In this document: piece by piece, positions 18,371-62,039 of the stretch | How positions within the stretch are numbered: the first letter of the stretch is position 1 | How the letters are laid out: each line of letters starts with the position of its first letter | Source of the DNA: Echinarachnius parma | Lineage: Eukaryota; Echinodermata; Echinoidea; Clypeasteroida; Echinarachniidae | Assembly (NCBI GenBank): GCA_037951105.1 | Contig: JBAMJV010000856.1 | Coordinates: 1-64,000 of the forward strand | Direction: 5' to 3' | Length of the DNA stretch: 64,000 nt | Translations under genes and position numbers: made by a program | The notes under the pieces: generated by a model | The model's database searches: none | The model's input: the letters and a program-made list of their open reading frames with translations, nothing else | Told to the model about the DNA's origin: nothing

Positions 18371-20275
18371 AATATAACATCGCTGTTGTAATATCATGAT
18401 TATAATGAGATAACATTTTCATAAACAAACTTACAAGACGAGCATCATTTAACATGTTTAATCATTCAAACCCCGACCATTTTTACTGAGATTTTTAATA
18501 AGAAAAATAAATTCATTGTCACTTTAATAGTCATTGTGATATTAGTATTAAAAGTATATACATTACGTAACAATATTTTGTTGCAAACCGGAGTTTCATT
18601 TCTCCATTTCATCAATTTAAAATAATTGCGATAAGAAGTGCTGAAAAACAAAAAACTATATATTATGACATCTGAAAATACCTTGAAAAGATTATACCAT
18701 CATAATTATACTTAGAGCGAAATATAATTTTAAATGACGACCTTATACTGAAGTCAACTGGAATAATGATACATGGTGTGTAAAATGCGTTTATGTATTT
18801 AAAAAATAAATAAATACACCAGTCCATAAATTACAGTGGTGTCTAATGCCCGGCGCAGACAGAGCCGACTAGACCCGATCCGATCCGACTCGACTGAAAG
18901 CCACAGTCGGTCCAATTCAGTCGAGGCCTATTCAACATGTTGAACCGGGCCCGACTGGCTTTCGACTGGCAAAAGCGGAGTCGTGAGGCAATGCACACAG
19001 AGCCGATCCGACTAAAAAAACAGCCGGATCGGGTCGAGGTGGCCCTGTCTGCGCCGGGCTTTAGAAATTAGAATCCATGGACCCATGCATGCACGGACGA
19101 GCGAGTAATATTTATACGTTGGATGGTAAAGGACTTTACCATCGATTAAATATGAAGCACAGTTTTAATCAAAAAAGAAAAAAAAGAAGAGTAGACAAAA
19201 AAGAAAAGAAAATTAAAGAGTTTTAATTGGCAACAATAGTCAAGTTTGACTGATTGCCGTAAAATAACAACAGCAACGACTGGGGCCTATGGGATGTGAG
19301 CGTTATAGCTCAATTAAATGATGACCATCGAGTTAATTGGGATATCGTCGCCTATCACCGCTCTTTCTCGCGATATTAATTTCGGTTTTGTCCCGGAGGT
19401 GACACGCTCTGGTTAAAATTGACCCTTATCCAGGTCCTTGACCACTCATCTGCAATAATACAAGCGTATGGCTATATACCTGGTATAGGCACTGCTTGGT
19501 TGACCAGTATTGTTTTAATACTCTCCGTGTATAGAGGTATACGCTACACAACAGCTTTATATCATCGATATACAAATATTGTTGTGTGCTTTATACATGC
19601 ACTAGGCATAGAACCGTTTAGTATTTCTTTAATAATGGAAAACTATAATAACGATTTAAAGCGCTATGATGATACTACTCACGTGAATAGCGCATGTAAA
19701 TAATAATAAGACAAAAACAAACATTATTATTGTATTGTTGGCATATATATATGTCAGAAGATAACGATAGTAAAATGTCAAGCTGGATTCCTTTTGAAGT
19801 AGGGCACATTATCCAATCAGTTCTGACAATCGTATCCTTTTAGATTGCCGGCAGCAGCAGCGATTGCTAATATTTCTAATACAAGAGCGTTCCCAAAAAG
19901 TATGTTGTTGTTACTGTTGCTGTTGTTATGGTTTAGTGGCAATCAGTCAAAGGTTACTATTGTTGCCGTTTTAATTTTGTTAAATATTTTTTTTTCAAAT
20001 TTTTTTTTTTGGTTTTAAGCCTTCAAATATCGAAATATAAACAAGATTATGTTTCGGAAATAATATCGCTAGTGATATTCGTTTGTCTCGCAATGTATGG
20101 TCAACAAGGAATCTAAAAGATCACGACGTTTCGTGCGCCGCTGCAACACTTCGTCAGGCATGTCAAGTGTGATAGAATATGTTGTAAACAAGCGTGTTTT
20201 ATACTGTACGGTTAAGATTATGTTTATTAGTGAAAGATATCTTGCAAAAAAAAAAATGAATAAACACATTTTGTA
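18371..20275. other. gene-free stretch around a MITE
   Basis: AT-rich, with A-rich sequence near 19170-19215 and poly-T near 19985-20010. Apart from the MITE at 18844-19063 nothing was recognised. Confidence 0.45.
18844..19063. mobile_element. palindromic MITE with GCCCGGCGCAGACAG ends, copy b
   Basis: Left GCCCGGCGCAGACAGAGCC and right CTGTCTGCGCCGGGC are inverted repeats. The centre is CAACATGTTGAA, as in the copy at 4463-4688. The outermost bases TCTAA and TTAGA are also complementary. Confidence 0.75.
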
Positions 20276-20460
20276 CACTGTTGGTCATAATGTTGGAATA
20301 TTTTTTTTTTTAGATCCAACTTTATTATTTTTCCTGATTTTTGCCTCTAATGAATCATTTTAGACTAAAAATAATCATTACATTATGTTTCCAAACTACC
20401 AATGTACAATACATGGTAGCATGAATTTGCATTAATTAATTTATTCTTTTGTTTTGAGCT

Positions 20461-20931
20461 TTGAAAGGCAGGACCTTTGATGATTGGCCCCTTTCCTTCT
20501 CCAAAGCGTATGTCCAACGAGTCATCGTTATGGGTCATTTCTCAAAGTTGGCCGTGAGATTTTCAACCAAAATTGGCACAGAGGCTCTCGAGGCCATACC
20601 CGGTCCAATGTCATTGGCTACGTGCCGAACGATGCTTGTGCTCCACCAGGAAGGGGTGTCAACAAGCAATGTCCACTATTTCGTTGGACCATCGCAGGTT
20701 AAGGTCTGTAAAGTCCTCAGATGTCATCGAGAGAAGGGTCAATTAAAGCCAAGATTATCTCTAGGACGTCTACGATTGACCACCAGGATAGATTATCGCA
20801 AATTGCTTAACCTGTGCCGTAGAAACCGGAAATGCCAAAAAGGAGCCTTCGCCGACTATGAAGAAAACACTATGGAATCAACGCCTTCCGCCAAACTGTG
20901 CATCAGCAATCCCTCTAACATGGTCACATAG
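20461..20931 (+). pseudogene. Tc1-like transposase N-terminal fragment, left arm
   Basis: An open frame contains MLVLHQEGVSTSNVHYFVG, then VKVCKVLRCHREKGQLKPR, LGRLRLTTRID and YRKL. In Tc1 transposases this order is the first helix-turn-helix, the Y-R-E-x-G turn and the GRPR-like hook before the second helix-turn-helix; here GRPR reads GRLR. The frame drifts into unrelated residues before any catalytic domain. This is a remnant, not a working gene. Confidence 0.65.
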
Positions 20932-21409
20932 CAAGACAAACTACCAAGTGTCCACCCAATACCATGTAACCGAGATTTACCGGACGTCCCTGGACTAGGG
21001 AGCCCAGAAGATTTCCGCCTGGACACTAGAGATATGTCATCTTAATGGGTACGAGCCATGACATCCTTGACCAAACAGATGGAAGACAAATGGTTCGCCG
21101 ATTACGTGGCGAGAAGTTCCAAGTTGTCTGCATTCACTAAACGACTTGAGTTTGTGACGTCCCAACAGTGGTATGGCTCGTACCCATTAAGATGACATAT
21201 CTCTAGTGTCCAGGCGGAAATCTTCTGGGCTCCCTAGTCCAGGGACGTCCGGTAAATCTCGGTTACATGGTATTGGGTGGACACTTGGTAGTTTGTCTTG
21301 CTATGTGACCATGTTAGAGGGATTGCTGATGCACAGTTTGGCGGAAGGCGTTGATTCCAAAGTGTTTTCTTCATAGTCGGCGAAGGCTCCTTTTTGGCAT
21401 TTCCGGTTT

Positions 21410-21772
21410 CTACGGCACAGGGTAAGCAATTTTGAGATAATCTATCCTGGTGGTCAATCGTAGACGTCCTAGAGATAATCTTGGCTTTAATTGACCCTTC
21501 TCTCGATAACATCTAAGGACTTTACAGACCTTAACATGCGATGGTCCAACGAAATAGTGGACATTGCTTGTTGACACCCCTTCCTGGTGGAGCACAAGCA
21601 TCGTTCGGCGGGTAGCCAATGGCATTGGACCGGGTATGGCCTCGAGATCCTCTGTGCCAATTTTGGTTGAAAATATCACGACCAACTTTGAGAAATGACT
21701 CATAACGATGACTCGTTGGACATATGCTTTGGAGAAGGAAAGGGGCCAATCATCAAAGGTCCTGCCTTTCAA
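21410..21772 (-). pseudogene. Tc1-like transposase N-terminal fragment, right arm
   Basis: Mirror copy of the fragment in the left arm, read on the opposite strand, with a few substitutions (YREKGQ where the left has HREKGQ). It ends earlier through a frame change. The two fragments converge on the centre of the hairpin. Confidence 0.65.
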
Positions 21773-21959
21773 AGCTCAAAACAAAAGAATAAATTAATTA
21801 ATGCAAATTCATGCTACCATGTATTGTACATTGGTAGTTTAGAAACATAATGTAATGATTATTTTTAGTCTAAAATGATTCATTCGGCGCAAAAAACAGG
21901 AAAAAGAATAAAGTTGGATCTAAAAAAAAAAATATTCCAACATTATGACCAACAGTGTA

Positions 21960-34204: not shown

Positions 34205-36082
34205 ATTGCCACCAACAGTGACGTAATGTGTCATATGTTTTATACGTGAAATTATATGACTGGCTGCGGTTGAAAGGCATTTCGTGGAGGGACCTCACTT
34301 TATATAACGTATCGAGCAATCAACTGTAATTAAGTCGAATACAAAATCATGAAGAGACAGAGAGAGATAGAGAGGGGTAGGGGGGGGGGGGGTAGGGGGG
34401 GGGGGAGGGGGAGGGAGGGCGAGGGGGGAGTGGAGTAAACCGTGCTCCCCCCATGTACTCGATAAGTCTGTGAGGAATTTAATGACAAACTGCTATTTTT
34501 GTTGCATTGTTTTATTTATTTGTTTTACTATAAGAACCAGTAAGGGGCACTGACTTTGACAGTGGGCATAAGAAGTGGCGTCTAGCTCACGCATGCAACT
34601 TTATACCGAGCGATCATATTACCCTCCTTCACAAAAAGGGACAGCCACCCTACCCCATCCTCGAACCCCCACCCCTCATTTTAGCTACGCCATTCATGAC
34701 GTGAAGTATAGTCAAGAGGCATTAAAGGCGGGGCCTCACTCACGCAACTTATTGAGCGATCAACTATCGCGCGGAATGAATAAGTGGCCATATGGGCCGA
34801 CGAGAGACGTAGATTGATGGCGCACGCGTGCCATGGTGACATTTTAACCCCCTGACTGACGTACCGGTCGGTACCAACGGGACGACTAGCTTTGTTGGCT
34901 TTATCATATGCTTACTGTACGAGCAAATGTGCACCATCGGTATCGTGCAAGCATGGACCTATACAGTTACATGTAGGTTCATGGTAAAGAAATAAACTAG
35001 TACATCAATGGTATTATAATTATGTTTCCCATTGAAGCCAGATATATCGGTGACTGAGATCTATATACAATTAAGAGCAGAGTTAGCAAAAATTGCCAAA
35101 AATGATCGTCGTTATATAGAGGTTTAACGAAATAATACGGTAGCGACTCTTCAATTTACACCTGAGATAGATTGTATACATGAAATTAAAAATATCAACA
35201 TATTTAAATGCCTTTACATTTGAACAGATTAGAAGGAAAACATAATATTTCTGTTAAACTGTATATTAACACAGGCCTTGCCTTAGCGAACCTAGTGGGA
35301 TATGAACCCCGTCTTTAGGGCATGGATTATAGCATGTTGAATGGAACAGATTAATTCGCAGTATTAACCCGTTGCCTATATATGGTAGCCCGGTGGGACT
35401 GTAACGTGTAACTGCATACGTGCCAATTGCTTGCATTACAGCTACTGATTGTATGCCACGTCTATGATTGCACGCAATGGTAATAGAGTACTGTCTTGAC
35501 CATGCCCGTTTTATTGTGCGATGGCATTGTATACGTAAGTGGCACTATTGTTCAGTGCGCACCCTAATCTTCAGGACTGGTGTGAGGCATTTGCTTTTCA
35601 ATAGATTCCTTTCAAATCCCTCAAAAAGCAATTTAGCTGTGGTCTTCCAATTAATGTGGCACTGGGAATGTGCTTCACTGGCACTTTGGGGGTTAACTAT
35701 ATGGGGAATGCAACGTCTAGTAGGAAATAGGTCAAACGACGCTAACAACATGTTCATATCTACAGGAGCGAACCATTATGAAAAATTTAAAAAATTGAAT
35801 TTGGCAATAACGATAGAGATTACAACTCTGTTCATGATTATCTTTCACAATTATTTGTTATTGCGGGCCTCTACCTCGCAGAACTATGTTTAAAGCGTAC
35901 TTTCAAAAAGAAAATAGTACCATATTTGTAAACGGGGGGGGGGGGGGGGGGGGTTGGGATGGTTAATTATGTTTTGCATAATATGTTGTACTTTACACGA
36001 TTGGCCAGTCATTAAGAAGGTACATTTATAAAAAATAAAAACAAACGAAATTCACGTACAAAGCATTATGGCATCATCGCAC
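34205..36082. other. gene-free stretch with G runs
   Basis: Contains a purine-rich block with several G runs (34360-34430) and a 19-20 base G run at 35935-35953. Open frames here show no recognisable domain. Confidence 0.45.
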
Positions 36083-38337: not shown

Positions 38338-39594
38338 ATGGAGGGGATATCAACAAGCAGAAGACTACCTCGCTACGTGGTCTACTTATTAGCGAACTTG
38401 CTACTGTGTAGTTTCCTACTGCTCTTTATGTACGCTTCTCACGATATAGTCGGTACGGAGTATTCCCAACCGGCATACGGTGACTTCAGGCATGTTGTGC
38501 CATCAATAAGAGATGGAGGTAACGCTTTATTAGCTTACAGCATGGCGCTGACCTTTGACAGCACGCCACCACCGACGTGCTTCAGACAGGTACAGTTCTG
38601 GGATGGTTCAAAAGTTGATGTCAAGCCAAAGGAATACGCGTGTCCTGGTGTGAAGTGCGGCATTCGTTACGTGAGGGACACGAGTATAAAGACGATGCGG
38701 AATAGCCATGCTGTAGTGTGGTATCACCGCTCTTAGTGGCCGGACTGGGCCGTAATGCACAAGAATTGCCCACCCGGACAGAAGTGGCTGTTCTACAGTC
38801 TTGAGAGTCCCATACACACAAACAGGCTCGTAATTCCACCGAGGCCCTACTACAACAATTCGTATGACTACGCGATAGGTTATCGGGACGGCGTCACCTT
38901 CATTGCTTCGTATGGCTACTATGACCCGACAGAACCCGATATTGCGAGCGACGAACCTCGGCGAAACTGGGCGAAAGAGAAGCCCCGCCTTGTGGCCTGG
39001 ATGGCTTCAAACTGCGGCACGACTTCTTGGCCTAGACGCGCATTTGTGGTCGCCCTCTCGAATCACATCGAGGTCGACATGTACGGAGCCTGCGGGAACA
39101 AGAAATGTCCCAGGAAATCGGGGGAATGCACCGCACTCCTGCAGACGTACAAGTTGTACATGGCGGTTGAGAACAGCGAGTGCCGGGACTACATTACAGA
39201 GAAGTTCTGGCGAAACTCGCTGCTAAACGGTATCGTTCCCGTCGTGTACGGTACGACCAAGGAGGACTACGAGCGCGTCGCACCGCCCAATTCGTTCATC
39301 CATCTGCACGACTTCAAGTCTGTGCAGGAGGTCGCCGACTATCTGCATAAGGTTGCGGCGAATGAGACTCTCTACAATTCGTATCTAGAATGGAAACGGC
39401 ACGGCTCCGTGAAGTTCAATAGAGGGACGTATTTACTCGGACCCCAATATCTCTGCCAAGTGGTCGGCAGACTTCTGGAGGATGCAGAGAAGGAAGCGGC
39501 GGGAATCGCAGTGAGCTCAAGCGCTCCCGATCTCAACTCGTGGTGGAGGGATGCTTGCAAGAACGTATGGACAGATTTCCCGAGGAAATTCTAA
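38338..39594 (+). pseudogene. alpha-1,3-fucosyltransferase (GT10), single coding exon with one in-frame TAG
   Basis: GT10 enzymes move fucose from GDP-fucose to GlcNAc on glycoprotein and glycolipid chains in the Golgi lumen. Reading from ATG 38338 gives the expected type II layout: a short basic cytoplasmic start (TSRRLPR), one TM helix (YVVYLLANLLLCSFLLLFMY), a stem, then the catalytic region. Recognisable blocks, in order, are AVVWYHRS, SLESPIH, YRDGVTFIASYGYY, AWMASNC, SNHIEVDMYGACG and the GDP-fucose-binding core YKLYMAVENSECRDYITEKF with FWRNSLLNGIVPVVYG. It ends WWRDACKNVW and stops at TAA (39592-39594). Total length is ~418 codons, usual for the family. One TAG at 38734-38736 falls right after the HRS block; the frame continues unchanged on both sides, so it is a lone nonsense codon. 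Either the gene is a young pseudogene, the stop is polymorphic, or the base is an assembly error. Confidence 0.85.
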
Positions 39595-40230
39595 CGGGCG
39601 GGAATTGCAGTGAACTCGAGCGTTCCCGACCTCAACTCGTGGTGGAGGGATGCTTGCAAGAACGTATGGACAGATTTCCCGAGGAAATTCTAACCGGCGG
39701 GAATTGCAGTGAACTCGAGCGTTCCCGACCTCAACTCGTGGTGGAGGGATGCCTGCAAGAACGTATGGACAGATTCCCCGAGGAAATTCTAACGGGCGGG
39801 AATTGCAGTGAACTCGAGCGTTCCCGACCTCAACTCGTGGTGGAGGGATGCTTGCAAGAACGTATGGACAGATTTCCCGAGGAAATTCTAACCGGCGGGA
39901 ATTGCAGTGAACTCGAGCGTTCCCGACCGCAACTCGTGGTGGAGGGATGCCTGCAAGAACGTATGGACAGATTCCCCGAGGAAATTCTAACCGGCGGGAA
40001 TTGCAGTGAACTCAAGCGTTCCAGATCTCAACTCGTGGTGGAGGAATGCCCGAAAGAACGTATGGACAGATTTCCCGGGGAAGTTCTAACCGGCGGGAAT
40101 TGCAGTGAACTCGAGCGTTCCCGACCTCAACTCGTGGTGGAGGGATGCCTGCAAGAACGTATGGACAGATTTCCCGAGGAAATTCTAAACGGCGGGAATT
40201 GCAGTAAACTCGAGCGTTCCCGATCTCAAC
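39501..40230 (+). repeat. 99 bp minisatellite made from the fucosyltransferase C-terminus, ~7.4 units
   Basis: Units begin with GGGAATTGCAGT (first unit GGGAATCGCAGT) at 39501, 39600, 39699, 39798, 39897, 39996 and 40095, with a partial unit at 40194. The period is exactly 99 bases throughout. The first unit is the genuine end of the gene (last 30 codons, TAA, and two more codons). Later units lie beyond the stop and each repeats the same in-frame TAA. The unit at 39996 is the most diverged. Read two bases on, the array is open for about 250 codons as a 33-residue repeat, but there is no support for that being translated. Confidence 0.95.
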
Positions 40231-41289
40231 TATCAATTCTATGGGGATTGCACAATCTAATAGGGGACAAGTTAACACTGTTAAGTATCACAATACAACG
40301 ATAACTATGCATGTATTACAGTTTCTTGCTTTTTTCATGCCAAATTTTAATTTTTATAGCCGATTGCAAACATTTTTATTTGTATTCGTCATGGTCGTAT
40401 TATGTTTTTTTTAAACGAAAGCATTGCGGTTTTTTAACTTTTACTCCTATCATAAATAAAATTAGAGTTCATATCATTATACGTAATGTCTTCTATTTGT
40501 ATACATGATCATGTGAAAGGGTTACACTGATAGATTAGCATGGTAGTCATGATAAAGAACTACATATTAATGATGATTACTGTATAATAGCATAGCATTA
40601 AAGGGACAGACGAATTAATGTTAAACTTAATTCTGTTGGCTAAATCTGTGCGTACGTATACGTGTGTGTGCGTGTGTGTGTGTGTGTGTCAGGGGGGTGT
40701 CACTGCTGCCAGAGTGCAGCGATTTTTGCTCACCGGAAGAGCCCACAACTGGTTGCATTATGGGCTACTTGGGAACTACAGTTAACCAATCACAGAGTAG
40801 TTCAAACGCGTCGTCACGGGATCGAGGTCAATAAAACAAGTTCATATGCATACGTCACAATGGCTCCCATTGTTCTCATAAGCGTGATGAAATCTAGGAC
40901 AGTGCGCAGGAAAATAGGCGCGATAGTCTACGCACTGCATAGCATGATGATTGGTCAAGTATTTCTAGGTCACTACCCGATGACGTAGAGAAGTGGGCTA
41001 CGGGAGCTTCAAAAATCGGTTCACTCCGCCATGTTGCCCATGTACAAAGTCTATGGGACACGTGACTTGCGCGCGTTAAGTGAGCCTTCTAGTTATAAAC
41101 GGGTTGGTTTGTTTATTCATACTTCTATGGTGTGTGTGGGTGTGTGTGCGCGCGCGCAAGTGTATGTTTGTGCCACATCATTAATTTGTTTACCATTCTG
41201 TTATGGGATAAATTTGCCAATTCTGTTTTTGTTTACGTGCAATGAGGCGTGCATAAAACCTGATGCATGTTTTATAATATGATTTTTAA
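40231..41289. other. 3' flank of the fucosyltransferase
   Basis: AATAAA at 40455-40460 could serve as a polyadenylation signal. A (TG)n tract lies at 40664-40690 and a mixed TG/CG tract at 41133-41160. Sequence at 40720-41060 carries ETS-like (CACCGGAAG) and YY1-like (CGCCATGTT) words, but no transcript start could be argued. Confidence 0.4.
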
Positions 41290-43214: not shown

Positions 43215-44360
43215 TTACTTATTGAAGGTGGCTGCTGCCTTCTTGCAGGACTCGAGAACAGAATCAGGGAACTTGGTTTGGTAACAAAACCCACTCATTG
43301 ATGCTTTTTGAGTTAGGATGTCTGATAGTGTGGCAGTGGACAAGTTCGGTCTGAAATCTGTCGCATTCCGCCGCACCAGGCTGAATAATCTCTCATCTGA
43401 TGCATTGCTGTGGGCGATAGAGAGTACCATGAGCATGACCTTTGGAAGATGCACATACTTCTGATTTTGAGATGCATCCTTGATGTCCGCAATTTGAAGC
43501 CATACTGTGTCTGCTCTTTCCTCTAGTGTGATGGAATCAAGAGGATCTGTCTGGAAGTGCCCGAACTCTAACTCGAGAGCATCTAACTCCTCTTGAAGGT
43601 ACCCAAATCTTCTGACGAAGTAGGCCACGTCGGCAAACCTGGTCTCCACCCTCATCCTTGGGTTTGCCACCCGGGCATGATGAATGACTTCGTCCTTCAG
43701 AGGAAAGGTGGCAAGAACGTAATCACACACAGCTACAAAATACCTTCTGACTGCTGCAAAAAACTCTGTCTTTTCATCTTGAGTCAGCTTCTCTGAGGCA
43801 AGAAGTTCTCTGACTGCATTTCCCACAATCAGTTCTTCATTGCCCTTCTGGTTGAGTTCCGATTTATAGTCCACCAAGCTAATTGTAGGAGCACCAGCTA
43901 TGGCAGCAGGCTTGACAAAGCGAACTAGCAGATCATGTAGAAGGCTTTGGAGTTTGTCATACACCAGATGGATTTTGGGGGCTTCCTCTTGTAGCTCCAA
44001 ATTCAGGCGATTGAACATTGGGATCACATTTTGGAGGAACAAACAGTACATTTTATTCCTGTTCTGAAACATTCTGAAGATGTCCCCAGCCTTGTTTGTG
44101 CTCTGTTGAGACGACCCTTCACTCATGCTTGTTGATGACTCATTACTCTTCTTTGCTTTCACCCCTTCCTTGCTGCTTGGATGAATGCAGGACTTAGAAC
44201 CTGCATGCAATGTTGGAGTGCCCACTGATGTAGCCTTCACTCCCTGAGGCTGACCACTTGATGAAGATGAATCCGAGCTTGGTCCTGGGGTAGCATTGCA
44301 GTCTGCAGATGAACTTGATGAAGGATTCTTGCTTGCACTGGTAGAACTGCTCACTTTTAC
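43215..44360 (-). CDS. hAT transposase exon 4 (C-terminal, dimerisation domain)
   Basis: Last exon of the transposase: acceptor TTTGATTTCAG above 44360, stop TAA at 43215-43217, phase 0 with exon 3. The first ~90 residues are Ser-rich and low-complexity. After that the C-terminal part shows the hAT dimerisation segment, LMVLSIAHSNASDERLFS, then VRRNATDFRPNLSTATLSD. The Glu in ASDERLFS matches the position of the catalytic Glu and the E-R-x-F-S signature in hAT enzymes. The frame is uninterrupted. Confidence 0.8.
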   Translation of the reverse strand, partial: VKVSSSTSASKNPSSSSSADCNATPGPSSDSSSSSGQPQGVKATSVGTPTLHAGSKSCIHPSSKEGVKAKKSNESSTSMSEGSSQQSTNKAGDIFRMFQNRNKMYCLFLQNVIPMFNRLNLELQEEAPKIHLVYDKLQSLLHDLLVRFVKPAAIAGAPTISLVDYKSELNQKGNEELIVGNAVRELLASEKLTQDEKTEFFAAVRRYFVAVCDYVLATFPLKDEVIHHARVANPRMRVETRFADVAYFVRRFGYLQEELDALELEFGHFQTDPLDSITLEERADTVWLQIADIKDASQNQKYVHLPKVMLMVLSIAHSNASDERLFSLVRRNATDFRPNLSTATLSDILTQKASMSGFCYQTKFPDSVLESCKKAAATFNK

Positions 44361-44858
44361 CTGAAATCAAATGGGGAAAATATATGGGAAATTCCATGGT
44401 TAGTTATGTTATATTTCATTTTGTTCAATACCTCTTGACAAAACATTCTTCACACATTTATTCAAAACTATTCCAAACGTCTCAGTGACAACACAAATTC
44501 AATCTTTGGAAAAAGGACATGGGAAAATGAGAGTGTTTGTCCAAAATATTCCCCATAAACAGAAGTCATCTGAAATAGAATGTTATCACTACAGCAGTGA
44601 TATCTTGGCAAGTTTTGAGATGTATAGAATAGTTAAAAGCATTGTGAATCCATAAAAGAGATACTGCCTAGTTTAATTTGAAGTAGTAACATTATCACTG
44701 TCTAAAACTGAATTTTACATTTGCTATTTGTCAAAAATCTAAAGCTAATAAAGATTCATTTTACAATGAACTTCATGACACAGTTTAAGAAGATTTAATG
44801 TAACTGAACTCAAACTGTTGATTTCTGAGGATCATTCAAATGCAAAGAAAATACTTAC

Positions 44859-44981
44859 TGAAGTACGAGGTATCTTGAATGACTTCATGGCACTGCTCAG
44901 ACTGTGTGAAGATGTGGAGGTAGAAGGCTTGCTGCAACTCAGCTTCTTGGTTGCGTTGGCTCTACCGCAGGTGTTCCCCTT
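44859..44981 (-). CDS. hAT transposase exon 3
   Basis: A 123-base, 41-codon exon with no stop, between an acceptor (CATATAAAG) above 44981 and a donor GTAAGTAT (44851-44858). It starts and ends in phase 0, matching exon 2 and exon 4. It encodes a Lys/Ser-rich linker (KKLSCSKPSTSTSSHSLSS). It is called on splice sites and phase, since the residues alone are not diagnostic. Confidence 0.6.
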
Positions 44982-45275
44982 CTTTATATGAAAAAAGGCA
45001 AAGTAAAGTAGAAAAAAGAACCATGGGATTAAAATCTTAAGATTAATAATAATAATAATTTTCCATTTTATATATTTATTATAATTACTATTATTATAAG
45101 CTATTTATTACTCGGAGGATTATCCCCAATCACATATGAGTTGCTTTATCATTAGATTGTTAACAATTGATTGACTGCCTTTATGTCTTGTACCTATATA
45201 CCATGGTCTGAGTTGACATTTTTTAAAATCATATATCTTAAAATAAAGATAAATTAGTATTTTGCCTGAACTTAC

Positions 45276-46426
45276 GAAAGACACAGGTTTCTTGGTTGAA
45301 CATGGGTCAGCACTTGACAAGGTCTTGATGGATGAGCCGACAAATGGCTTGAAAGATGAGCTGGCAGATGACTTCGAAGATGAGCTGGACTTGGAAGACG
45401 AGCTGGCAGATGTCTTGGAAGTTGAGCTGGCAGATGTCTTGAAAGTCGAGCTGGCAGATGTCTTGAAAGTCGAGCTGGCAGATGTCTTGAAAGTCGAGCT
45501 GGCAGATGTCTTGAAAGTCGAGCTGGCAGATGACTTCGAAGATGAGCTGGACTTGGATGACGAGCTGACAGATGTCTTGGAAGACGAGCTGGCAGATGAC
45601 TTCGAAGATGAGCTGGACTTGGATGACGAGCTGACAGATGTCTTGGAAGACGAGCTGGCAGATGACTTCGAAGATGAGCTGGACTTGGATGACGAGCTGA
45701 CAGATGTCTTGGAAGACGAGCTGGCAGAACCATCTTTGGAGAGGTGTGGTCCATCATGGCTGACCTTCTGCTTCTTCTTTTGTTGGGCAGGCGATCCTTT
45801 GAATTTTCTCTTCCCAGTTTCAGCCTCAGACTTGAAGTATAGATTCAGAGGATCCCATTGTTCCAGCAATCTGTTCAGTCCCCTTTCTAGGGAGAGCCAT
45901 CTAGTACACACATGGCGCAAGATTGTATGGGATTCCACACCACACATGCTTTGGTAGATCTTGAAGTCCTTGTGTCGTTTACTGGATTTCTCCAAGTAAT
46001 AGAACACTTGAATCAGCAAGTCCTCCGGAGCAAATGGAAGCTGCTTTGCCCCCTTCTCTGCGGCCAAATGCAGTCTATGGCAGATGCATCCCATTGTGAA
46101 GACGTTTGGATTTTCCTTCTTAATGTACGCTGCTACACCAGATCGGATACCCATCATTACTGCTGCATTGTCTGCAGAGAAGCATAGTACATTGTTCCAT
46201 GAAACACCAATCTCCTTAAGAGATTTGTCCATCATCAGGAAAATGTTCTCGCCAGTGGACCGCTCTTTGGATGTAGCAATTTCAAGCAGAACGCTGACCA
46301 CTTGTCTTGCATCAGAATCGTAGAATCTTACGATGATTGGGTACAGTTGCTCCTCTGCACCTCTATCCGAGCTGCCATCCGTTGAAATTGTAAAACGGGC
46401 CTCTCTGATCTTCTTCACGATGTTCC
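45276..46426 (-). CDS. hAT transposase exon 2 (RNase H-like core, first part)
   Basis: Exon from acceptor TTTTTTTTTTAACAG (above 46426) to donor GTAAGTTC (45268-45275). It opens with the RNase H-like fold: FTISTDGSSDRG carries the first catalytic Asp, and LCFSADNAAVMMG the second. CICHRLHLAAEKGAK is the Cys/His block typical of hAT, and TRWLSLERGLNRLLEQW follows. After about residue 210 it turns into Ser/Lys/Thr repeats that look like a later expansion. Its first two bases complete a Gly codon with the last base of exon 1. Confidence 0.85.
45345..45728. repeat. coding minisatellite in hAT exon 2
   Basis: Two interleaved units: a 24 bp unit (GATGTCTTGAAAGTCGAGCT type) four times at about 45432-45530, and a 66 bp unit with GATGAGCTGGACTTGGATGA three times at about 45531-45725. 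All lengths are multiples of three, so the Ser-Lys-Ser frame stays open. The opposite strand is also open and acidic, an effect of the repeat. Confidence 0.85.
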
Positions 46427-47183
46427 CTGTTAAAAAAAAAAAAGACCTGTGATGAAACTTGATGACATTGATCTAATATACTGTGCTCAGACTATGTTCA
46501 TTTTTTATTATTTCTTTAGCCAAAGAAAACGGCGCTAATGCAGTTTCACACACCTTTAAACAAATTTGGCATAAACAGCTGCAAAATTAGCGCCCCACTT
46601 ATCTGACCCAAGGTTTGGTTATGCTAGTGGTCATGGTGGGGCCTAATAGTACACAAAATATGCCAAAAATTGTTTAAAAGGTATGCGAAACTGTAGTGTA
46701 TTAGCGCCAAGAAAACATTCCAACCAACACTCTTTCCAAACAAAGGCATGTACAATTAACATTATTATGCAAACAATTGTTTGCTTCACCTTGATTAAAA
46801 ATGTTATCATAACTACAATGACTGTTTTGTGTTTGTAGCTGAGTAAATGTTGACAACACAATTATGACAGACCTTTGAGGGATAAATAAACAGTTTGGTG
46901 ATTGATACAAAACATATCTGTTAATCATTTTGCAGTGATTTTTTACTAATTTTAGGATGTGCAGTAACTTTAAGAAACTGTATTATTAATGGTTATATTT
47001 ATTTCGCCTAGTGCCGAATCATTGACAAACATCTAATTAGTAGATTGAAAGCAAACATTGAACATATTTAGTGTTTACTTTAGTTTGTTTTGACATGATA
47101 TAAAACCCATATCTCAGTCATTACAATACATACATGTAACATGAATTTTTATTTTTTTAATTTGATAATATATTTGCTCATAC

Positions 47184-47642
47184 CTTTCGCTACCTGGCCC
47201 AGCGTCCTGGCGACAGCAGTTGATTTCGTTCTCTTGCAAGCAAACGAAGAAGCCACTTTGCTGTCTGGGAACATTTTCTTCACTAACTCAGAGTAGACTA
47301 GTGGTCCATGATCGCAAAAGGAAGGTTGTGTTCTACCAAGAAATTCACCATCAGCGTTTCAGCTCGTATCGTTGAATGATCCGTGGTACGGAAGAATTGT
47401 CCAATGTCTCGCTGATTGTCGCGACTTTCAGCGAGGCTGACGTGTTTTTTTCTTTTGAGATGTGCCGTTATGTCGTTTGCTCCACCGTGACGTGGGCGCG
47501 CGATCCGGAAATCACACGAGCAAATTGTACAGCGCACGGAAAGCTCATCACGTTTTGATCGTATTATGCAAGGCCAGCGTGTAGTGTACTCCGATCGAAA
47601 AGATTGTAACCGCAGATGACTTTTCGATGAAGTTGACGCCAT
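47184..47642 (-). pseudogene. hAT transposase exon 1 with BED-type zinc finger and a frameshift
   Basis: Starts at ATG 47640-47642. A BED-like finger uses Cys38, Cys41, His61 and His67 (CTICSCDFRIARP, then HLKRKKH). After NLPFAIMDH the frame meets TAG (47298-47300). The expected continuation ELVKKMFPDSKVASSF then appears in another frame and runs to donor GTATGAGC (47176-47183) with a phase that fits exon 2. The extra TAGTC around 47296-47300 would account for the shift. The copy therefore looks non-functional as assembled, though all other exons are open. Confidence 0.75.
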
Positions 47643-48117
47643 GATGATCCTGGGCAGTGTACCATAGGTGTTAAATGATCACAATCAAGAACTTTATCCC
47701 AAAATATAAGCTCTTTGCAGCCACATTCTAGCCCCACTTATATGCGAAAAATGACAATCGAGCCAAGTCAAAGACTTTGCTCCGTGTGCGTGATAACACG
47801 TGTGCAGTGTATAATAGGTATGCGGTATGTACATGTATTGTATGAAGGTGTATTGAAACTTCGCGCACGAAAATTTCGAACTTTTTCAAAGTGTCGTAGG
47901 AGCAACAAATTACTGTAATCTCAATGAAACAAGCATTAAAATACTCCCTCTATTCTGAGGATTCGATGTATGTAAAACATTTTCGATTTAAACTCACAAT
48001 TCATGTGTTATTGGCCCGATTCCGTAACCATGTCATATCAACAAGAGATTCTTCACCGAGTACGGTAGTCTTGAAACTTCGCGCTCCATACACTTTGATA
48101 CACTGGCATTGACTTAA

Positions 48118-59509: not shown

Positions 59510-59530
59510 CTAAATAGGAGATGAAATATT

Positions 59531-60894
59531 GGGCCGTATGCATAAAAACAAGCAATTGCTTATAAGCAAATGCTTTAAGCACAAGCAAGAGCTTGTCAAG
59601 CAAAAGATCAAGTTCAAGCAATTGCTTAAATTCGTATGCACGAGCCTTTGCTTGTGCTGAAACCTTTTGCTTGCACTGCCTAAGCTGCAATTGCTTACGT
59701 GTTGGACAAAGGATCGTTACGGTTGTGCGAACATCGCACTGCAGGGCAACAGCGCTTCGTGCCCGACCTGGCAGCAGTATTTTTTATTACGCAAATAGGG
59801 GGAAAACAGCGCAGAGCATCAGGGGGGTTTCTGTGCAGATCGATGGACAAAAATTCCCGTAAAAAGTCTAAAATAACAGGAATTTGATCACAACATAACC
59901 TCTGGAATATGGAGCTTGAAATCATCCTGAAACGGTACGAAAATTTGATCCTTAAACGCGAATGCACTGAGCAAGCAAGAGCTCAAGCTGGTCTGGATGT
60001 GCTTGAAAAAACGCAAGCAATTGCTTATCAAGACAAGTAAAAGGTTCGTTTTATGCATACGGTTTTAAGCAATTGCTTGTTTGGTAAGCAATTGCTTACG
60101 AGCAGTAAGCAATTGCTTGTGCTTGTAAGCAAATGCTTTTGCTTGCAAGCAATTGCTTGTTTTTATGCATACCGATTCAAGCAAAAGGCTAGCACAAGCA
60201 AAGGGCCGTATGCATAAAAACAAGCAATTGCTTGTGCTAGCCTTTTGCTTGAATCGGTATGCATAAAAACAAGCAATTGCTTGCAAGCAAAAGCATTTGC
60301 TTACAAGCACAAGCAATTGCTTACTGCTCGTAAGCAATTGCTTACCAAACAAGCAATTGCTTAAAACCGTATGCATAAAACGATCCTTTTACTTGTCTTG
60401 ATAAGCAATTGCTTGCGTTTTTTCAAGCACATCCAGACCAGCTTGAGCTCTTGCTTACTCAGGGCATTCGCGTTTAAGGATCAATTTTTCGTACCGTTTC
60501 AGGATGATTTCAAGCTCCATATTCCAGAGGTTATGTTGTGATCAAATTCCTGTTATTTTAGACTTTTTACGGCAATTTTTATTTGCCATCACCACATAAA
60601 CCCCCTCTGGAATGCTCCGCGCTGTTTCCCCCCTATCTGAACGGTAAGAAAAAATACTGCTCCTAAGTCGCACGAACTTGCCCTGCAGTGCGATGTTCGC
60701 ACAACCGTAACGATCATTTGTCCAACACGTAAGCAATTGCTTGGTCAGTTGCAAGCAAAATGTTTGAGCACAAGCAAAGGCTTGTGCATACGAATTTAAG
60801 CAATTGCTTGAACTTGATCTTTTGCTTGACAAGCTCTTGCTTGTGCTTAAAGCATTTGCTTATAAGCAATTGCTTGTTTTTATGCATACGGCCC
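59531..60894. repeat. 1.36 kb palindrome packed with AAGCAATTGCTT
   Basis: Arms of about 670 bp are inverse copies around 60201-60227. The outer ends are GGGCCGTATGCATAAAAAC and its inverse. The same terminal word also occurs at the centre (60203) and, as CCGTATGCATAAAA or ACCG variants, at about 60055, 60170, 60255 and 60369, so the structure looks nested. About 16 copies of the palindromic 12-mer AAGCAATTGCTT and many partial ones (AAGCAAATGC, AAGCACAAGC) fill both arms. A GC-richer ~200 bp block in each arm (59700-59900, 60550-60720) lacks the motif. No coding sequence is supported. Confidence 0.9.
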
Positions 60895-60921
60895 AATTGC
60901 TTGTTTTAATGCATACGGCCC
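60895..60921. repeat. extra terminal fragment next to the palindrome
   Basis: ATTGCTTGTTTTAATGCATA followed by CGGCCC repeats the palindrome's right end once more in direct orientation. Confidence 0.7.
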
Positions 60922-62039
60922 AATGTCTAGTTCAATATCATGTTCATGTTGACACTTCTATAATATGTCACTACGGGGCGGTATAATATAGGATGATGTA
61001 CTGTCGGTTGTGCGATTATAATTCATTGACACGCGCTCGGGAATACGTTTGATCATTCCCGAGTTCCTCCTACTTGGTTTTCCCGCGAGACCTGTCCGTC
61101 TGGTCGTGACGTCACGCAATTTTCAATTTTCGCGAGATTTGATCGCTAATTATTTGTGCATGATATCACACGCTCACTAATGATACATGTACTACAATTT
61201 ATTATAAAGCCCCATTTTCTTTGATAATTTTCATTTATAATATTTTGGTCAATTTCCCTATGTTTTAAATAATTATATTATGTCATAGACTCATAGTTGG
61301 TCCAGTCTTGAACAAGCAGGAGATGTCGATCTGTATTCGATCTCGGCGTGAGATTCTGGTCATGGCGGTGACGATATCGAATTCCATCACGAACGGGTAG
61401 TCACGGTTGCACCCAAGCTATCACCAGTTTGCTGCCTACCTCCAATCAAATTATTTGACCCTATGCGGCGATATAGGTGTGTTTTCAGGGGAAGTGCGGG
61501 GGTGGGGGGGGGGGGGGGGCGGTCGGGAAAGAAGGAGCACTAAGTTGCAGGTAGTAAATTCCTGTGGAAAAAGGGAAACAGTTTATTTGCTTTAGCATTT
61601 TATTAATTTGGGATCCAAAGGGAGTGTCGAGGATGCCCAAATTACGTGTTTTGTTCTTTATTGTTATATTTGTTTGTTGCTGGGTGGGGGGGGGGGGGGG
61701 GGGGGTGCATAGTCCCGCCTAACCTACGCAACTTGCAGGCTAATCATATACATGTAAATTTTTTTTTAAAAAGAAAAAAGAAATGCCATTTATATTGATC
61801 TTTAATCGCCTACACCGGATATAATGTGAACGTAATAATTTCCTTTTGATATGACAAAATCGTTTGCGCAAGATAGACTGAGGGGAGAAAATACATGTTG
61901 CAATGTATGCGTGTGTGATTCATGTGTCTGGAACATTATGTGGCAATCGATTAACATAGAATTGAGCAGTATGTGTGTGGGTTGTGGGTACGTGATGTGT
62001 CAGCCATGTGATGAATTATGTAGTGAATGAGAACAAAAA
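60922..62039. other. gene-free stretch with G runs
   Basis: A small hairpin (CTCGGGAAT facing ATTCCCGAG, 61036-61064) and G runs at 61500-61518 and 61685-61705. No gene recognised. Confidence 0.45.

Follow-up and report, generated by a model that had tools for sequence, protein, structure and literature searches.

A long palindrome in Echinarachnius parma is best explained as a nested pair of MITEs from one family with Pangu-like ends

A 12-mer-rich palindrome near the end of a 64,000-nucleotide stretch of the Echinarachnius parma genome (contig JBAMJV010000856.1, positions 1–64,000; the whole stretch analyzed, hereafter the window) is very probably explained by two MITEs of the same family, one nested in the other. 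The family has terminal inverted repeats (TIRs) of ~31 bp and an ANT target, and is most likely moved by the proteins of related 3.1-kb elements. The palindrome is a single nested insertion and not a mobile foldback unit, and the locus itself is ordinary, an accident of transposition.

The palindrome consists of two MITE copies

The 12-mer AAGCAATTGCTT occurs in 16 exact copies between 59531 and 60894. The first occupies 59550–59561, and the others start at 59616, 60015, 60067, 60086, 60107, 60147, 60222, 60271, 60311, 60332, 60351, 60403, 60731, 60798, and 60864. When up to one mismatch was allowed, 20 copies were found in the window, all of them within the element; 100 shuffles gave an expectation of 0.33. 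The inverted arms include segments of 353 nt at 99%, 148 nt at 98%, and 63 nt at 98% identity, pair more poorly at about 59750–59848 and 60581–60677, and agree at 647 of 685 aligned positions (94.5%). A preliminary description of this DNA had reported about 16 copies of the 12-mer in two inverted arms, at a density far above chance, and both statements hold, the arms being mostly 98–99% alike. Its right limit of 60894 had to be moved to 60921, because the outer copy continues for 27 bases past the inner one.

The outer MITE copy, on the plus strand, spans 59531–60921 with an interruption and has the ends GGGCCGTATGCATA and TATGCATACGGCCC. Its own pieces are 59531–60202 and 60895–60921, with one 3-bp target repeat counted twice; the first three of the 27 bases at 60895–60921 are the 3-bp flank of the inner copy. 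The joined pieces amount to 696 bp and are 98.8% identical over 693 columns to L005:2949, the closest relative among 45 sampled copies and the third member of a tandem on contig C19. The inner copy (60203–60894, 692 bp) is inverted, on the minus strand, with both termini present. Its nearest relative among the 45 other sampled copies is L045_532 on contig C94 (95.8% over 683 columns); in its middle (windows 211–350) it reaches only 81–85% identity to the best sampled copy, too little to point to a source for that part.

The inner copy was inserted into the right terminal repeat of the outer copy, within the 12-mer of that repeat. Its left flank, AAA (60200–60202), derives from this 12-mer, AAGC-AAT-TGCTT, and its right flank is AAT (60895–60897), so that the target duplication is imperfect, with unlike third bases. 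The outer copy is flanked by ATT on the left (59528–59530) and AAT on the right (60922–60924), which differ at the middle base.

For each arm, a copy elsewhere matches better than the opposite arm does, and the central junction of the palindrome has one exact match in the whole genome, that in the window. We therefore conclude that two independent insertions took place. An inverted duplication of a single copy, or an erroneous inverted join made during assembly, could also account for the large portions of the arms that are 98–99% identical. Either origin is very unlikely, because the arms resemble two different copies elsewhere (98.8% for the outer and 95.8% for the inner) more than they resemble each other (94.5%), and because the outer copy is completed by 27 bases on the far side of the inner one. 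Judged from the sequence, a false join is unlikely on the same two grounds.

The MITE family in the genome

A search of the genome (1.2 Gb in 14,790 contigs) found AAGCAATTGCTT 12,569 times, against 25 times for the reversed control. The family end GGGCCGTATGCATAAA gave 1,365 forward and 1,318 reverse matches, 2,683 in all (control, 0), so that the family comprises roughly 1,300 elements, provided that most retain two ends. The MITE unit, a short DNA transposon, is ~700 bp long and non-coding, and the terminal inverted repeats of the family measure ~31 bp (GGGCCGTATGCATAAAAACAAGCAATTGCTT). On contig C4, a lone copy measures 705 bp end to end, is flanked by AGT on both sides, and has a TIR of ~31 bp that starts with GGGCC and contains one mismatch. 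Beyond this TIR, the motif arrays give rise to an imperfect inverted likeness (72.7% over 121 bp). Modules of TATGCATAC, described earlier as the element's own terminus recurring at inner points, are indeed present; they also belong to the consensus of 46 family copies, however, and so are not special to this locus.

The sampled loci were the first 100 of the 2,683 end matches, all on contigs with low numbers. Bracket matching of their ends, without a size limit, yielded 51 pairs, 46 of them 507–736 bp long, and the mean number of exact 12-mers per MITE was 7.8. The five longer pairs were the outer copies of the window locus, L057, and L068, together with L044 and L050, which contain other inserts. 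The stricter end rule excluded L055_1412 (flanks AAT/ATT) and L086_1315 (AAT/AGT), both of them further middle-base differences, and also L043 (1217–2607). Seven loci with one recognised end (L042, L046, L047, L049, L067, L075, and L080) and one with two right ends (L062) gave no pair, and a pairing of L084 to an internal near-terminus was not counted among the 51. The check proposed in the preliminary description, whether copies in the genome have the same limits and a target duplication, found many such copies, with a duplication of 3 bp.

These copies also bear on the earlier idea of a composite foldback element grown by nested insertion of its own ends. The nested self-insertion proved correct, but a whole 692-bp MITE was inserted, and growth from repeated ends is rejected because the genome has no second copy of the central junction. 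The mobile unit is not itself a long inverted repeat, as its terminal repeat is ~31 bp and the likeness further in is imperfect. That an element moves or amplifies as one palindromic unit of 1.36 kb is scarcely credible: the long palindrome does have termini inside it, and the motif arrays of single copies resemble each other imperfectly in inverted orientation, but exact matching placed the central junction at the window locus alone, and 46 of the 51 sampled end pairs lie 507–736 bp apart even though pairing was free of any size limit. The unique junction tells against such a unit unless further copies were collapsed or altered during assembly.

Nesting and clustering recur in the family. L068 (contig C231) is another inverted nested pair, with the inner copy within a continuous outer copy, and L057 (C130) has a nested copy inside. 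Outside the window, inner copies were thus found in 2 of 49 sampled pairs, against about 0.04 expected (0.040 for 51) from a family share of the genome of ~0.08%, an estimate made from the end counts. End-to-end neighbours with one common ANT number 35 genome-wide (control, 0). Self-insertion may reflect local hopping or an attraction to the family's own ends. The family consensus is no richer in the sequence CANTG (2.9 versus 4.7 per kb), whereas the 12-mer raises its density of CAATT/AATTG (27 versus 3.5 per kb).

Two further arrangements were observed. At G000:C13035:8233–8916, two end-to-end junctions and a family end overlapping another end fall within 700 bp, which is probably a further nested array. 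Inspection by eye of L044:1800–2850 (C84) revealed two other hairpin-like inserts within a MITE copy, one of them GC-rich and one adjoining the right terminus.

Candidate coding partners share the MITE ends

A pattern for family ends with different inner sequence matched nine places (control, one), and one such end, on contig C6771, lies directly before a match to the transposase domain DDE_Tnp_4. At this place (L087:670), the family end motif adjoins the middle of the transposase gene, as in a truncated relative of the partner. DDE_Tnp_4 gave at least 150 scored matches from 394 candidates. Besides C6771, 20 slices were compared with its transposase, and two showed 86% identity, so that the coding partners counted here are a minimum.

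The two coding elements obtained, L108:2770–5883 (3,114 bp, flanks ATT/ATT) and L109:2738–5847 (3,110 bp, flanks AAT/AAT), are 98.8% identical. They share both ends with the MITE, resemble it over 273 bp (91.9%) at one end and 220 bp (94.5%) at the other, and contain 6 + 4 exact 12-mers. Both match the Harbinger/IS5-type DDE transposase family PF13359, with E values of 5.5e-39 (L109) and 5.9e-38 (L108). On the opposite strand, a second ORF of 161 aa is open in L108; L109 has no frame of at least 100 aa at that place, and in L087 the ORF is split over two frames. The second protein matched MADF with an E value of 0.011, which falls below the Pfam cut-off, and also Itfg2 (E = 0.05); comparison with solved structures returned nothing useful.

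The L108 and L109 elements are likely the coding partners of the MITE. From their sequences we infer that elements of this type mobilize it: their Harbinger/IS5-type transposase would move the MITE, and their small, weakly MADF/Myb-like protein would perhaps also be involved. At L108:2075–6595, a MITE, the coding element, and another MITE are adjacent, joined by ATT on one side and by 15 bases on the other. L049, considered as a possible longer element, was set aside; its longest frame is 95 aa.

Relation to known transposon groups

Harbinger/IS5-type DDE transposases in same-ended elements place the family in the PHIS superfamily (PIF/Harbinger, ISL2EU, Spy, Pangu, and Nuwa). Within it, the family fits the Pangu group by its ANT duplication and end sequence; as characterized in PMC4482050, Pangu elements have an ANT duplication, TIRs of 11–40 bp starting with AG or GG, two ORFs, and a mean length of ~3.5 kb, and their transposase clade lies beside IS5. 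In our sample, the duplicated ANT is identical in 29 of 51 pairs and unlike only at N in 17 more, with clean empty sites, and the ~31-bp TIR starts with GGGCC. Further likenesses to the group as presented there are the Harbinger/IS5-type DDE transposase and the length of the coding element (~3.1 kb here). Two ORFs may be a further likeness, the second being open in L108 only; its match to MADF/Myb-like proteins is weak, and the second ORF of Pangu is described there as lacking a known motif. The main text of PMC4482050 contains no mention of the terms subterminal, palindrom-, nested, or mismatch.

The TWA duplication of PIF/Harbinger proper was not found in the family, which has ANT instead. 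As reported in PMC4561436 and PMC2836001, PIF/Harbinger elements and Tourist MITEs such as mPing resemble the present family in a 3-bp duplication with a free middle base, in the combination of a DDE transposase with a Myb-like protein, and in MITEs that are moved by a coding element, but differ in their TWA target. Foldback elements such as Tetris and Galileo share a palindromic look and tandem copies; the mobile unit here, by contrast, has a ~31-bp terminal repeat, and the long palindrome is a one-off. Zator had been considered for its 3-bp duplication and was replaced by the PHIS assignment; the partner that was found carries PF13359. The ISAzo13-type transposase of Zator (PF07592) had no match, but its control likewise gave a match in 0 of 14 genomes.

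The 12-mer is a predicted binding site

We compared the variation of motif and surrounding columns across 46 copies, leaving out 16 end columns and the middle. Half-site columns varied at 1.37%, against 4.44% outside, and 0 of 406 circular shifts were as extreme; for full 12-mers the values were 1.53% and 3.84%, with 1 of 406 shifts as extreme, and the common descent of the copies limits both results. Gaps were not rarer in motif columns (3.9% versus 3.2% outside). Within the subterminal regions, the motif array changes most slowly, with about threefold less variation than its surroundings.

In zebrafish, a Myb-like protein of Harbinger3_DR is reported to bind a 9-bp subterminal motif (PMC9710019), so that the 12-mer is plausibly bound by a transposition protein as well. 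The likeness lies in a repeated subterminal motif as the likely binding site; the difference lies in its form, here a 12-bp palindrome with a mean of 7.8 exact copies per MITE. We thus regard the 12-mer as the predicted binding site of a transposition protein. A protein of the coding elements would bind the palindromic 12-mers and half-sites and assemble at the ends.

E-boxes, the sites of bHLH factors, follow the pattern CANNTG. The core of the 12-mer, CAATTG, fits it, and a bHLH-binding array had been suggested for that reason. That these are host E-box sites selected for gene regulation is nevertheless highly improbable, since the array belongs to ~1,300 dispersed transposons and is common to the ends of their coding relatives, since it is the slowest-changing subterminal part in the sampled MITE copies, and since the low variation spans the AAGCA/TGCTT half-sites. 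Among the papers searched, AAGCAATTGCTT occurs in one, on lactic acid bacteria.

Other features of the window

A second palindrome of ~1.69 kb, at 20274–21959, matches its reverse complement at 93.8% identity and contains two ORFs in inverted orientation whose protein sequences are almost the same. These ORFs are presumably Tc1-like; the first of them had no Pfam match. At 39497–40231, a 99-bp tandem repeat (7.4 copies at 94%) starts within the end of a fucosyltransferase ORF (Glyco_transf_10, 38737–39594) and repeats its last coding stretch. Transposon pieces with weak DUF659 and zinc-finger matches lie on the minus strand at 43215–47678, presumably from a hAT-type transposon, and an ORF at 45322–45728 has a 24/66-bp serine-rich tandem repeat inside.

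The target site and its unequal flanks

The consensus of the insertion site in the 51 sampled pairs is ACA-N-TGT, with a 3-bp ANT duplication. On the left, its bases were found as A in 30, C in 39, A in 50, and T in 49 pairs, and on the right as A in 50, T in 49, G in 37, and T in 38. Besides the 29 pairs with identical flanks and the 17 unequal at the middle base only, two pairs differed at positions 1 and 2, two at positions 2 and 3, and one at position 3. The central position therefore accounts for 21 of the 26 differing flank bases (P ~1e-6 against one third). Copies with an unequal middle base are no older, their median distance to the nearest sampled copy being 1.04% (14 copies) versus 1.28% (28 copies), so that age does not explain these differences.

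Seven empty sites were compared, and four of them (L007, L071, L078, and L074) were clean, with one target triplet; L059 read GAT, and L048 and L086 had gaps at the junction. For L078 (C287, flanks AAT/ATT), a paralogous empty site with ATT was found in the window at 35449–35662 (~77% alike), and this segment therefore probably belongs to another repeat. For L074 (AAT/AGT), the empty site has AGT (86% alike). Both sites are continuous on either side, and in both the target base is the one kept by the right flank. L007 (C23) and L063 (C185) have their flanks in common, and the joined flanks are repeated at L007:3199–3438 (99.6%), a pattern that points to a segmental duplication in which one copy is empty.

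We tentatively propose that a single-stranded ANT of the old site is carried to the new one and that the mismatch at the middle base is then settled separately at each end, giving unequal duplications. Staggered cuts within a duplication that has a free middle base are supported for mPing (PMC4561436). In the same report, however, a rice mPing element flanked by TCA on both sides had inserted at TTA or TAA 45 times out of 46, a result that weakens carry-over as the cause here. For the unequal flanks only, gene conversion or recombination between copies, instead of the insertion reaction, is possible rather than probable. Copies cluster, with 35 end-to-end junctions genome-wide, tracts ending in the common CANT could swap the middle base, and the mPing insertions speak against carry-over of donor flanks there (PMC4561436). 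On the other hand, the continuous empty sites of L078 and L074 indicate no exchange of flanking DNA, and the inner copy of L068 sits within a continuous outer copy; conversion may have been confined to the end bases alone.

The family is of value as a large MITE family with end-sharing candidate coding partners and a palindromic motif array of low variation. The middle-base oddity is the part worth following, as it can serve to test cutting and joining by Harbinger-type transposases. If carry-over is true, a third of the sampled copies would bear a genomic footprint of staggered cutting inside the duplication, and the transposition reaction would be readable from genomes alone.
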